Below are positions 35,982 to 62,528 of a DNA stretch of 64,000 bases, piece by piece. Every line of letters starts with the position of its first letter. Within the stretch, counting starts at the first letter, position 1. Under the pieces are notes generated by a model. The model searched no databases. It was not told the DNA's origin and was given only the letters and a program-made list of their open reading frames with translations. Source of the stretch: Sideroxydans lithotrophicus ES-1 (GTDB taxonomy: Bacteria; Pseudomonadota; Gammaproteobacteria; Burkholderiales; Gallionellaceae); NCBI RefSeq assembly GCF_000025705.1, contig NC_013959.1, forward strand, positions 1 through 64,000, read 5' to 3'. The position numbers and the translations under genes were made by a program.

Positions 35982-36848
35982 ATGCGCATCATCACCTTAA
36001 ACCTCAATGGCATCCGGTCGGCATACAACAAAGGGCTGCTGGAATGGTTCTCCAGGCAGGATGCCGACATCCTGTGTGTGCAGGAGCTCAAGGCTCAAGC
36101 AGCCGACATGACAGCGGATATGCTCTCACCACTGGGTTATCACGGTTATTTCCACTATGCCGAAAAAAAGGGCTACAGCGGTGTCGGCATCTACAGCAAA
36201 CGCAAACCTGACAGCGTGATCGTGGGTCTGGACATTCCCGAGTTCGATGCCGAAGGGCGCTATATCGAAGCGCAGTTCGGCAATCTGAGCGTGGTGTCCC
36301 TATACCTGCCTTCCGGATCCAGCGGAGAGGAGCGGCAGGCGGTCAAGTTCAAGTTCATGGAAGCCTTCATGCCTCACCTCCGACAGATGATGGAGAATTC
36401 AAAAGTCCCAGTTGTCGGTGAGTCGCGGCTGCTCCCGCAAACGGCTGGCTCCACCAGTAACGTGTCGCAGCCGCACATGGTCCAATTGCAGCGTAGTGGT
36501 CGCGACGTCATCGTCTGCGGCGACTGGAATATCGCCCATACCGAAAAAGACCTGAGGAACTGGCGCGGCAACAAGAAGAACTCCGGCTTCCTGCCGGAGG
36601 AACGCGCGTGGCTCACCGAACTGTTGGGCGAGGTCGGCTTCGTCGACGTGTTCCGCAAATTGCATCCGGAACTGGAGGCCTACACCTGGTGGTCGAATCG
36701 CGGCCAGGCGTGGGCCAAGGACGTCGGCTGGCGCATCGACTACCAGATCGCCACCCCCGGTATGGCCGCAAAGGCAGTATCGACGGGCATCTACAAGGAG
36801 CAGCGCTTTTCAGACCATGCCCCGCTGATGGTGGATTACAAAGATTAA
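35982..36848 (+). CDS. xth: Exodeoxyribonuclease III with an in-frame insertion
   Basis: ExoIII is the AP endonuclease and 3'-exonuclease of base excision repair. The protein has the catalytic motifs LNLNGIRSA, CVQELK, GDWNIAH and SDHAPLMVDY. It is 288 residues long, about 33 more than usual. The extra residues, about 138-170 (from ENSKVPVV to HMVQLQR), interrupt the link between PHLRQMM and RSGRDVIVCGDWN. The extra DNA contains a perfect hairpin (36425-36474) shared in design with pdxA. The reading frame is intact, so an active enzyme with a surface loop is plausible. Confidence 0.93.
   Translation: MRIITLNLNGIRSAYNKGLLEWFSRQDADILCVQELKAQAADMTADMLSPLGYHGYFHYAEKKGYSGVGIYSKRKPDSVIVGLDIPEFDAEGRYIEAQFGNLSVVSLYLPSGSSGEERQAVKFKFMEAFMPHLRQMMENSKVPVVGESRLLPQTAGSTSNVSQPHMVQLQRSGRDVIVCGDWNIAHTEKDLRNWRGNKKNSGFLPEERAWLTELLGEVGFVDVFRKLHPELEAYTWWSNRGQAWAKDVGWRIDYQIATPGMAAKAVSTGIYKEQRFSDHAPLMVDYKD
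36425..36474 (-). repeat. Palindromic element, family A, inside xth
   Basis: GCGGCTGC (36425-36432) and GCAGCCGC (36467-36474) are perfect inverted arms. Read on the minus strand, the first arm is followed by GACACG and the second is preceded by TGCGGGA. The same two loop motifs and spacing occur in pdxA with a different but also self-complementary arm. The element adds residues in frame to ExoIII, in the orientation opposite to the gene. Confidence 0.75.
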
Positions 36849-36865: not shown

Positions 36866-36980
36866 CGTCATTCCGGCGCAGGCCGGAATCCAGCGATTAT
36901 ATTTAACATGCCTTTGGTGTTTGTATCTGCTGCGCAGGGATTTCTTGTTTGACTGGATTCCGGCCTGCGCCGGAATGACG
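36866..36980. repeat. REP-like inverted repeat pair
   Basis: A 28-base sequence beginning CGTCATTCCGGCGCAGGCCG at 36866-36893 is repeated in exact inverse at 36953-36980, with 59 bases between. Each copy is itself partly palindromic (CCGG...CCGG). This resembles REP/BIME-type dispersed elements common in proteobacteria. It lies between xth and the DUF2238 gene and may form an RNA hairpin that ends xth mRNA. Confidence 0.85.
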
Positions 36981-37907: not shown

Positions 37908-37982
37908 TAACGTGCAGCTAAGGGGCGCGCCGAAGGCGCGTCCCAGCGACCGGAGGGAGCGAACTTGAGCGCAGGGTTAGAA
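37908..37982 (-). repeat. attC-like recombination site 1
   Basis: The 73 bases from TAAC (37908-37911) to GTTAG (37976-37980) have complementary ends and an internal GC-rich hairpin (GGGGCGCGCC/GGCGCGTCCC). Read on the minus strand the ends look like the RYYYAAC and GTTRRRY boxes of integron attC sites, with some mismatches. It lies 9-85 bases after the stop of the 112-residue gene on that strand, where the attC of a cassette should be. Confidence 0.6.
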
Positions 37983-38335: not shown

Positions 38336-38411
38336 CTAACGTATAGCTAAGGGGCGCGCCGAAGGCGCGTCCCAGCGACCGGAGGGAGCGAACTTGAGCG
38401 TAAGGTTAGCC
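38336..38411 (-). repeat. attC-like recombination site 2
   Basis: TAAC (38337-38340) to GTTAG (38405-38409) is again 73 bases and nearly identical to the first site. Differences in the outer arms keep pairing: TGC opposite GCA in site 1 becomes TAT opposite GTA here. On the minus strand the stop codon TAA of the 129-residue gene overlaps the site's TAAC box, typical of cassettes. Confidence 0.6.
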
Positions 38412-42170: not shown

Positions 42171-43338
<1,168 letters not shown>

Positions 43339-47771: not shown

Positions 47772-48848
47772 TTATGTCCGTTCATTGCGCACCATTTCCA
47801 TTGCGACCTTGATCGCTTCCAGCAGGCTGCCGACCTCGGCCTTGCCGGTCCCTGCCAGTTCCAGCGCCGTGCCGTGGTCGACCGAAGTGCGGATGATGGG
47901 CAGGCCCAGTGTGATGTTCACCCCTCCGCCGAAGCTGGCGTGTTTCAACACCGGTAGCCCCTGGTCGTGGTACATCGTCAGCACGGCATCGCAGTCGCGC
48001 AAACGATGTGCCGCGAACAGGGTGTCGGCAGGCAACGGGGGGCTCACGTTGAAACCCTCGGCACGCAGTTTATCAAGCACGGGAATCATCACGTCGATCT
48101 CTTCGCGCCCGAGATGGCCGCTTTCTCCGGCATGAGGGTTCAACCCTGCCACCAGGATGCGCGGCCTTGCGATACCGAAACGGCGCTGCAGGTCGCGCTG
48201 CATGATGCGCAACACGTTTTCCAGCAGCGGCGCAGTGATGGCGTCCGCCACTTCGCGCAACGGCAGGTGGGTCGTCGCCAAGGCCACGCGCATCACAAAT
48301 TCATTTTCGGAGGAGGCTGCCAAGGCTGTGTCTGTGATGCGTTGCGCGGGCTCCCGCACCGAATGCTGCGCATCACCGTGTCGCCCGCGCATCCCTCTTC
48401 CGACCAGCATCATCACCACAAGAGGCGTATGTGTCTGCTCGGCGAGGAATTCGGTGTGTCCGGTGAAAGGAATGCCGGCATCGTTGATGATGCCCTTGTG
48501 CACGGGCGCAGTGACCATGCCGGAGAACTCACCCGACAGACAGCCCTGCACTGCACGCCGCAGTGTCTCCAGCACGTAAGGGCTGTTCGCGGAATCGAGT
48601 TTCCCGGCCTGCGCCGGACGATGTAAGGGGACATGCAGCACGCTCAGCTTGCCATTTTCAAGCGGCCTGTCAGCTGCGTAGTCATGCAGCCGAACGCCGG
48701 TGCCGAGCAGTGCGGCGCGATGCAGCAAGAGCGACTTGTCGGCGATCACCACCAGCGGCTGGTCATGTCCGGCCAGCTGCAGGCAAAGATCGGGGCCTAT
48801 CCCTGCAGGTTCGCCAGCGGTTATAACGAGCGGTGCTAACACGGTCAT
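47772..48848 (-). CDS. pdxA: 4-hydroxythreonine-4-phosphate dehydrogenase with in-frame insertion
   Basis: PdxA makes the aminoketone precursor of pyridoxal phosphate. Conserved motifs include [25 protein letters not shown], the metal His in [13 protein letters not shown] and [11 protein letters not shown]. The protein is 358 residues, about 30 more than usual. The extra residues, about 150-186 (from GRGMRG to ENEFVM), separate VVMMLV from [11 protein letters not shown]. The inserted DNA contains a family A palindrome (48344-48390), also found in xth. The Shine-Dalgarno comes from a second repeat just upstream. The reading frame remains open. Confidence 0.93.
48344..48390 (-). repeat. Palindromic element, family A, inside pdxA
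   Basis: On the coding (minus) strand, GCGCGGGC is followed by GACACG, then after about 25 bases TGCGGGA and the perfectly complementary GCCCGCGC. The xth copy has the same GACACG and TGCGGGA motifs but a different complementary arm. The whole inserted segment spans about 48291-48401 and is read in frame in pdxA. Confidence 0.75.
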
Positions 48849-61348: not shown

Positions 61349-61804
61349 TTAGTGGACGCCCAGCAACTCGACATCGAACACCAGCGCTGCATTCGGCGGG
61401 ATCACACCGCCCGCGCCGCGTGCGCCGTAGCCGAGCTGCGGCGGGATGATCAGTGTGCGTTGCCCGCCCACCTTCATGCCCTCCACGCCCTGGTCCCAGC
61501 CTTTGATGACCTGACCTGCGCCGAGTGAAAATTCAAAAGGTTCGTTGCGGTCGCGTGAGCTGTCGAACTTCTTGCCTTTATGGTCAGGTGCAGCCTCGTC
61601 GTATAGCCAGCCGGTGTACTGCACAGTCACATTGTGGCCGGCAGTGGCCGGAGCACCATTGCCGGTCTTGACGTCGATGACGGTCATTTTCACGTTGCTC
61701 TGCTCCGTGGCTGGTGACGGTTGCGATGCCTGCTCGGAGCAGGCCGAGATGCCGAAAGCGGCCGACAACAACAGGGCGTACGATAATCTGGAAATCGGGT
61801 TCAT
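61349..61804 (-). CDS. FKBP-type peptidyl-prolyl isomerase, lipoprotein
   Basis: Starting at 61804 gives a lipoprotein signal ([14 protein letters not shown], lipobox ending in Cys) followed by one FKBP domain (about 40-151). It has [38 protein letters not shown], and [16 protein letters not shown]. It should be anchored in a membrane facing the periplasm and help proteins fold at proline bonds. A longer frame from 61885 reads into the neighbouring gene. It follows the tandem FKBP gene. Confidence 0.92.
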
Positions 61805-61841
61805 ATATGCCTCAAAGAAAATGGATCTGGCGGGAGCAGTT

Positions 61842-62528
61842 CTACTGCACGCCCAGCAGTTCAACCTCGAATACCAGCGTCGCATTCGGCGGGATCACGC
61901 CGCCCGCACCCTGCCTGCCGTAGCCCATTTCCGGCGGGATCACCAGCGTGCGCTGACCGCCCACCTTCATGCCCTGCACGCCTTCGTCCCAGCCCGTGAT
62001 GACGTGGCCCATGCCGAGCGGGAAGTCGAACGGCTCGTCGCGGTCGCGCGAGCTGTCGAACTTGGTGCCCTTGTTCTCCGGCGCATTCTTGTCGAACAGC
62101 CAGCCAGTGTAATGCACCGTCACATGCTGCCCGGCCTGCGCCTCTGCGCCTTCGCCGACCCTGGTGTCCACCATGTCGGTCTTGATCACCTTGAGCAGCT
62201 TTACGTCAAACACCAGCGTCGCATTCGGCGGAATCACGCCGCCCGCGCCGCGCGGGCCGTAGCCCATCTCCGGCGGGATCACCAGCGTGCGCTCGCCGCC
62301 CTCCTTCATGCCCTGCACGCCCTGGTCCCAGCCCTTGATGACGCGTCCGCCGCCGAGAGGGAAGTCGAACGGCTCGTTGCGGTCGAGCGAGCTGTCGAAC
62401 TTCTTGCCCTTGTTGTCGGGCGCGTTCGCGTCGAAGAGCCAGCCGGTGTAATGCACGATGACGGTCTGTCCGGCTTGCGCTTCAGAGCCTTCGCCCAGTT
62501 TGGTGTCGGTTTTGATGAGGGTGGTCAC
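61842..62528 (-). CDS. Tandem FKBP-type peptidyl-prolyl isomerase
   Basis: The 228-residue protein consists of two complete, very similar FKBP domains (about 1-112 and 118-228). Each has [23 protein letters not shown] and [11 protein letters not shown]. No signal peptide is seen, so it is probably cytoplasmic. It starts with GTG at 62528, overlapping the stop of the HTH/GIY-YIG gene by three bases. The domains are also close to the adjacent lipoprotein, so the three appear to come from local duplications. Confidence 0.9.

Follow-up and report, generated by a model that had tools for sequence, protein, structure and literature searches.

The window analysed here is the first 64,000 nucleotides of Sideroxydans lithotrophicus ES-1, whose genome is a single contig of 3,003,656 bases; the window starts at base 1. 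Two of its genes, pdxA and xth, each contain a 99-nt in-frame insertion made of two hairpins. Both insertions belong to a dispersed family in which a conserved core lies inside an outer stem whose arms vary between copies, yet mostly remain complementary. The element is probably a non-autonomous mobile hairpin dimer that works like the Rickettsia palindromic elements (RPEs).

The pdxA and xth insertions

A preliminary description of the window had given pdxA about 30 extra residues, and orthologue alignment makes the excess exactly 33 aa, or 99 nt. The span between fixed motifs is 201 nt in ES-1 vs 102 nt in empty orthologues; a GATGCGC repeat at the two ends leaves the edges of the insert uncertain by a few bases. 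The xth insert is also 99 nt, appearing as a 33-residue gap in the orthologue alignment. The features, with matches to the covariance model R1 (see below), are:

47772..48848, minus strand: pdxA (4-hydroxythreonine-4-phosphate dehydrogenase), 358 aa, insert carrier; open reading frame (ORF) above the NCBIfam TIGR00557 cut-off, aligned with 8 orthologues
48292..48390, minus strand: 99-nt in-frame pdxA insert (33 aa), from a 33-residue gap in the orthologue alignment
48383..48390, minus strand: pdxA hairpin A, 5' outer arm GCGCGGGC
48352..48382, minus strand: pdxA hairpin A core, 31 nt, GACACG..TGCGGGA, with inner stem ATGC/GCAT and loop GCA
48344..48351, minus strand: pdxA hairpin A, 3' outer arm GCCCGCGC
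48290..48340, minus strand: second, degenerate pdxA hairpin, recognised by eye, no R1 match; arms GCATCACA (48333-48340) and TGTGATGC (48290-48297), 35-nt core starting GACACA
35982..36848, plus strand: xth (exodeoxyribonuclease III), 288 aa, insert carrier; ORF above the NCBIfam TIGR00633 cut-off
36425..36474, minus strand: xth hairpin B, R1 match with E 3.4e-11; arms GCGGCTGC/GCAGCCGC (36425-36432 and 36467-36474), 34-nt core (36433-36466)
36371..36424, minus strand: degenerate xth hairpin, recognised by eye, no R1 match; arms GCCTCACC/GGTGAGTC (7/8 pairs), minus-strand core GACAAC...TGTCGGA

The 8-nt outer arms of pdxA hairpin A pair perfectly, and its core is matched by R1 with E 1.1e-13. 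The preliminary description had taken a monomer of 47-50 nt as the unit, but the pdxA hairpin that it named is half of the 99-nt insertion; each insert holds a second, degenerate hairpin, which makes the unit a dimer some 100 nt long. In pdxA the two hairpins are spaced by 3 nt, as in 47 of 76 dimers. The motifs GACACG and TGCGGGA, which that description saw in both genes, are indeed common to the two copies: the pair occurs twice in the window against 0.12 expected, and 1 of 100 shuffles reaches two. The perfect xth arms occur once in the window (mean 0.00 in shuffles). The opposite orientation relative to the genes was also read correctly, the element being sense in pdxA and antisense in xth.

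Apart from one pdxA gene, the orthologues that could be read elsewhere in the genus are without the inserts. Of 28 other genus loci for pdxA, 21 were readable and have the empty length (7 were missed by the search motif); for xth it is 27 of 29 (2 missed likewise). The pdxA insert of genus genome G004 is shorter and diverged (69 nt vs 99), and a Gallionellales locus (L082) has the same pdxA insert, with an identical core (31/31) and diverged arms that pair at 6 of 8 positions. In predicted structures of PdxA and Xth the inserts form low-confidence coil between secondary-structure elements; mean pLDDT (predicted local distance difference test) values of 55 and 49 (9 sequences each) make these models too poor to judge the loop.

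Just downstream of xth lies an inverted pair of CGTC-type repetitive extragenic palindromic (REP) hairpins (window 36866-36893 and 36953-36980; CGTCATTCCGGC..GCCGGAATCCAG, or CGTCATTCC..CCAG). This is a known kind of repeat, separate from the 99-nt element.

Anatomy of the hairpins and of the dimer

In its typical form the element joins two different hairpins, A and B, tail to tail, over a net length of 95-99 nt. An 8-bp outer stem, mostly reading GC-N6, encloses the conserved core GACACG...TGCGGGA of each hairpin. The N6 part differs between copies even where cores are identical, yet is mostly self-complementary. A fuzzy core search over 164 loci gave 319 matches. In 207 copies selected blind to their outer arms, all eight positions were paired in 161 and at least seven in 186, compared with 8/8 pairing in 6% when arms from different copies were combined; R1, with its preference for paired arms, was the source of most of these loci, and the loci cover part of the listed matches. 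When the core alone was used for selection (43 sequences, 39 of them distinct), the outer helix was still 93.3% paired and 7 of its 8 pairs changed on both sides, while the whole structure had 90.0% paired cells (at most 64.7% in slid versions).

Arm diversity is high, with 71 distinct 8-nt arms among the 186 copies. One identical 31-nt core was found in 20 copies with 11 different arms, and one identical 34-nt core in 17 copies with 9 arms. GC forms the outermost two left-arm bases in 158 of 186 copies. By eye, most inner loops read GNA with GC closing pairs; among DNA mini-hairpins, d(GCGNAGC) stands out for its stability.

Among 83 neighbouring hairpin pairs, the arrangement is tail to tail in 76; the other 7 mark junctions between tandem dimers. 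A is joined to B in 73 of the 76 dimers, across a gap of 3 nt in 47, 2 nt in 27, 4 nt in one and 1 nt in one. Tandem junctions overlap by exactly 2 nt in 6 of 7 cases, the GC being common to both dimers. Net lengths of the 76 dimers are 95 nt (5), 96 (14), 97 (13), 98 (7) and 99 (37); the commonest, 99 nt, is also the size of the pdxA and xth inserts and the period of tandem dimers. A dimer has on average 3.9 of six frames free of stops, compared with 3.0 in shuffles. Folding of five DNA and five RNA stretches gave mixed structures (z -1.4 to -4.1), and the folding model predicts that the dimer could form one long hairpin instead of two.

Family size and distribution

The GACACG...TGCGGGA pair occurs 16 times in the ES-1 genome and its reversed control twice; true copies with pairing arms make up over half of the 16. 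R1 was built from nine aligned copies (A1), with pairs assigned to the outer and inner stems. In A1, 92.3% of cells are paired and 29 show changes on both sides, compared with at most 53.0% and 8 in slid versions. The preliminary description had proposed a search with such a model, and its expectation held: R1 finds at least 16 copies in the ES-1 genome (worst E 1.3e-6; a lower bound, 150 of 896 first-look candidates having been scored) and further copies in relatives, with strong arm covariation and several copies in genes.

R1 matches were present in 23 of 41 genomes including ES-1, 22 of them among the 24 other members of the genus and none among 16 genomes of other families, with up to 31 single-hairpin matches found per genus genome. 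An order-wide R1 scan with stricter filters gave matches in 22 of 200 genomes and 11 of 108 genera. A type-A core scan with one genome per species returned 40 stretches, of which 38 are labelled Gallionella, Gallionellales, Gallionellaceae, Sideroxydans, Ca. Ferrigenium or Nitrosomonadales; the remaining two are a Gammaproteobacteria and a Nevskia bin. Hairpins laid out in this way, with cores starting GACTCGG and arms such as GCGCCCCG/AGGGGCGC, were observed near GACACGG copies in other families of the order (L370, L372, L374).

Insertions inside protein-coding genes

Among fetched loci, 115 of 142 copies fall within ORFs of 120 codons or more, some of which may be spurious in GC-rich DNA. 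Therefore, 18 insertions in 17 genes were chosen from 34 by their recognisable protein, and orthologues were sought in 12 genomes. All 18 are in frame, and for each at least three aligned relatives are without the insert, which bears out the earlier suggestion of a coding-compatible family. The carriers exceed their relatives by 99 nt in 13 cases, 96 nt in 3 and 198 nt in 2. By the net-length formula, 18 of 19 gene-borne dimers examined are divisible by three, and the 19th (L183) adds 99 nt in alignment. Each dimer in the genes examined thus contributes 96 or 99 nt, and therefore 32 or 33 residues with the frame kept.

Carrier genes include RecG, GlnE, AroA, MsbA and phosphoenolpyruvate (PEP) carboxylase. 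PdxA, Xth, PEP carboxylase, GlnE, HemW, AroA-Cmk and MsbA score above the NCBIfam curated cut-off and TrmJ in its family model; RecG is the best NCBIfam match of its carrier but below cut-off (553 residues given), and the remaining names were assigned by eye. In ES-1 itself the carriers are pdxA, xth and an ABC transporter gene at 966027-966135, and some inserts recur in further genomes, an AtmA-like ABC transporter insert being common to ES-1 (G000), G024 and G013. Two aligned relatives have something at the site, a 42-nt remnant in HemW of G004 and 51 nt in GlnE of ES-1. The latter (L319, G000:C1:2123000-2123490) consists of 51 extra nt near the site of the G021 dimer and looks unlike the element.

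Target sites

When 19 distinct sites were judged by eye, 15 had a native GC at the aligned junction in one or more relatives; T precedes the junction in 46 of 76 dimers. The similarity between flanks and arms was measured in 36 dimers with equal outer dinucleotides and flanks without trace of another copy. Agreement round the shared dinucleotide was 2.0 nt per dimer vs 0.97 in permutations, none of 5000 being as high. Collapsing rows borne by a repeat resembling a miniature inverted-repeat transposable element (MITE) left 29 dimers with 2.48 vs 1.18 permuted. These counts replace a looser one (45 dimers, 2.51 vs 1.21) in which flanks held pieces of neighbouring copies. Direct repeats at the ends reach 10 nt in RecG, a PepD-like gene and an ADH-like gene (the last by eye), and are only 2-3 nt in PurL, PEP carboxylase and AroA. 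Since flanks resemble the arms and the repeats vary in length, the element seems to choose sites that resemble its ends, rather than to duplicate a target of fixed length. As regards MITE hallmarks, usually a 2-nt GC is shared, longer direct repeats vary in length, and some dimers sit inside the MITE-like repeat.

This intergenic repeat, with ends resembling GGGCACCTCTAAAAAT, was seen by eye at seven loci (L167, L169, L179, L194, L197, L200, L230). An A/B dimer sits in it, flanked by CATAT and ATATG, and has spread with it; an earlier idea, that the intergenic CATAT/ATATG copies stand beside one common gene, was rejected because they lie inside the repeat. In four other loci (L243, L209, L189, L228) a copy follows the apparent stop codon of a small ORF ending ..ENWAIAGKLLDED (by eye). 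Copy and flank together recur at intervals of 127-128 nt in two genomes, and two more have the copy.

Evolution in place

Twenty-one non-redundant pairs of orthologous elements were compared. Of their 168 arm base pairs 146 are unchanged, and 8 are Watson-Crick double changes, where about 0.5 would be expected from independent change. Core identity is 97.2% vs 82.9% in flanks 60-260 nt away. The search limited each core end to one mismatch, so the core interior was also measured, giving 96.0% identity, and 95.5% for the 14 pairs that entered by another route than the core pattern. The earlier proposal that the fold rather than the sequence is conserved thus stands for the outer arms and partly for the inner stem, which vary, but not for the cores, which are kept in sequence. 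Copies also decay in place: the arms in the ES-1 ABC transporter gene are broken (L242), and G004 has its HemW remnant and shorter pdxA insert.

Proposed mechanism and alternative explanations

The element would move as a folded single strand or as extruded DNA, and a putative trans-acting enzyme would recognise the conserved core in the folded DNA, as suggested by cores kept far better than their surroundings. Template switching during replication may copy one arm onto the other (quasipalindrome correction) and so renew the complementarity of drifting arms, which would explain why the arms drift yet stay complementary. Template switching has been published as a cause of such stem changes, with precedent in RNA genes (excerpts of PMC8794818). 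The need for a closed stem during mobilisation possibly helps to keep arms paired, and selection on the stem at that stage, perhaps together with template switching, is a live alternative. Retention in essential genes would reflect near-neutral tolerance of an in-frame loop.

Several observations weigh against this reading. The AmgK-like, DMT, TrmJ and AroA sites show no native GC, net length is divisible by three in only 51 of 76 dimers (6 of 12 in loci without a covering ORF), and the arms of orthologous pairs include 13 one-sided changes and 1 unpaired double change of 168. Pairing in the larger sample is inflated, since R1, which rewards it, supplied most of its loci; the 43 sequences found by their core are free of this bias. 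Selection for a stem, in RNA or DNA, would likewise produce paired arm changes, and core mismatches persist although template switching on its own should remove them too. No mobilising enzyme was identified, the 51 loci fetched around Y1 transposase genes having no R1 match, and no movement between strains was observed.

The obvious candidate enzyme, by analogy, would be a REP-associated tyrosine transposase (RAYT), and a classical REP element moved by a RAYT would account for the opposite-orientation dimers, the dispersal, the intragenic copies and the short hairpins. Y1 transposase genes (PF01797) are indeed present in ES-1 and in 20 of 34 genus genomes. However, the core ends lack a GTAG tag, G022, G015 and G006 (each 99% complete) carry copies without a PF01797 match, and the loci around Y1 genes (31 + 20, in 45 distinct places, from among the listed Y1 matches) contain no copy, so RAYT mobilisation was not adopted and is considered unlikely. 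A further origin for the arms, suggested by pdxA and xth, would be the target itself, the partner arm being made at each insertion as an inverted copy of host sequence. The direct repeats at the two ends, as long as 10 nt in RecG and a PepD-like gene (and, by eye, in the ADH-like gene), agree with this, as do the outer arms of pdxA and xth, which overlap their repeats (by eye). Nevertheless, the arms in PurL, PEP carboxylase and a sialidase-like gene are unrelated to the native site beyond 2-3 bases, which led to rejection of this idea as the whole answer, and the same arm recurs at many different loci (GCACCTCC in 20 of 186 copies); it is judged distinctly unlikely.

A functional RNA hairpin in mRNA, its arms kept paired by selection on RNA structure, would fit the covariation, a classic sign, as well as the tandem G-A steps of the core and the 3-nt bulge of type A, which may resemble a kink-turn. 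Against it, both orientations relative to genes occur, the carrier genes are unrelated, copies decay in place (L242 in ES-1, HemW in G004), and the element has no match above gathering score in Rfam in the five sources searched; this explanation is given a low probability. Similarly low is the probability of a novel type of hairpin-dimer transposon with a rewritable address in its outer arms, in which the junction arms would resemble the target round the GC, the inner arms would be the complementary guide, and arm-to-arm copying would change the target while the protein-binding core stays fixed. Chance similarity of two unrelated inserts could appeal to the two copies in the window, but is already refuted by the 16 copies in the genome and the matches in 22 of 24 other genus genomes, and its probability is practically nil. 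The mobile, RPE-like hairpin dimer stands as the probable reading among these. A composite transposon was also considered and rejected by eye, no two copies lying 1-3 kb apart round a gene among the matches listed; in the order-wide scan, G068 has listed copy pairs about 1.9 and 2.9 kb apart.

Locus L018 (1135-1866) holds a gene for a 243-aa Y1 transposase-like protein, with AGGGGTCAGCCTCGCATTA repeats after its stop and a similar inverted copy before its start (by eye).

Relation to known palindromic repeats

Published systems are compared here by description, from excerpts of the papers cited. RPEs are palindromic units of about 100 nt, dispersed and in frame in conserved protein genes (PMC2229807, PMC3733652), traits also found here in the 18 chosen insertions and in pdxA and xth. 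The present element comes from another lineage and is an A/B heterodimer in which each half has a variable outer stem round a conserved core. The CGTC tag of RPE-4 and RPE-6 (PMC3733652) is not in the element.

REPs are hairpins of 20-40 nt that form inverted dimers; some lie in ORFs, in several genera as dimers, and dimers or groups there encode 20-30 aa (PMC3733652). The element shares short hairpins, inverted dimers and copies inside ORFs with GTAG and CGTC REPs, but its variable part is the outer stem enclosing the conserved core. Location also differs, REPs being mostly intergenic (PMC3733652) whereas most element copies tested are in ORFs of at least 120 codons, some of them possibly spurious. 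CGTC REPs are without a dedicated transposase, and have a terminal CGTC (or TGTC/CCTC), a stem starting AT and a tail that is mostly CCA (PMC3733652). In element copies inspected by eye, neither an AT-starting stem beside the tag nor a CCA tail was seen; CGTGTC is present as the reverse complement of one core end, but a variable arm follows it. An unpaired terminal GTAG was not found either, the core ends being GACACG and TGCGGGA or close variants, and the GTAG-REP trait of copies flanking RAYT genes gave 0 matches in the 45 distinct Y1 places. The coding palindromes of Nematomorpha mitochondria (PMC6649704) are likewise inverted repeats inside protein genes, but those repeats are perfect, can reach 284 bp and belong to animal mitochondria, whereas the element is a short, dispersed bacterial family.

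The preliminary description had also thought the family possibly undescribed. In support of this, no description of the element was found in an open-access library, among the matches listed. The main text of PMC3733652 has no mention of Gallionella or Sideroxydans; on the other hand, in-frame palindromic inserts are known from Rickettsia, as are intragenic REP dimers. What is distinctive to the element is its variable, covarying outer arms round a fixed core, in a unit that resembles RPEs and REP dimers and has neither the tag nor, in the Y1 loci fetched, copies flanking RAYT genes.

Other repeats in the window

The sole Rfam match, which lies away from the element, is RF02837 (anti-hemB RNA, 43251-43338; 62.1 bits vs a gathering score of 49.5). 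Two 73-nt direct repeats (37908-37980 and 38337-38409) are 95% identical, start with TAACGT, end with GTTAG and are 429 nt apart. At 61362-62493 a 300-nt unit is present in three direct copies, two of which are 76% and 84% identical to the reference copy.

Significance

Protein-coding palindromic insertion, best known from Rickettsia, thus extends to betaproteobacteria, among iron oxidisers and their relatives, where it reaches housekeeping enzymes. As the commonest unit is 99 nt, a multiple of three, with near-exact geometry, the family offers many natural experiments on the tolerance of proteins to a loop of about 33 residues. Furthermore, the fast, matched change of the arms beside a near-frozen core opens to test the long-standing question whether a mutational mechanism, instead of selection on RNA structure, can produce base-pair covariation, and the origin of covariation bears on its reading as evidence for RNA function.
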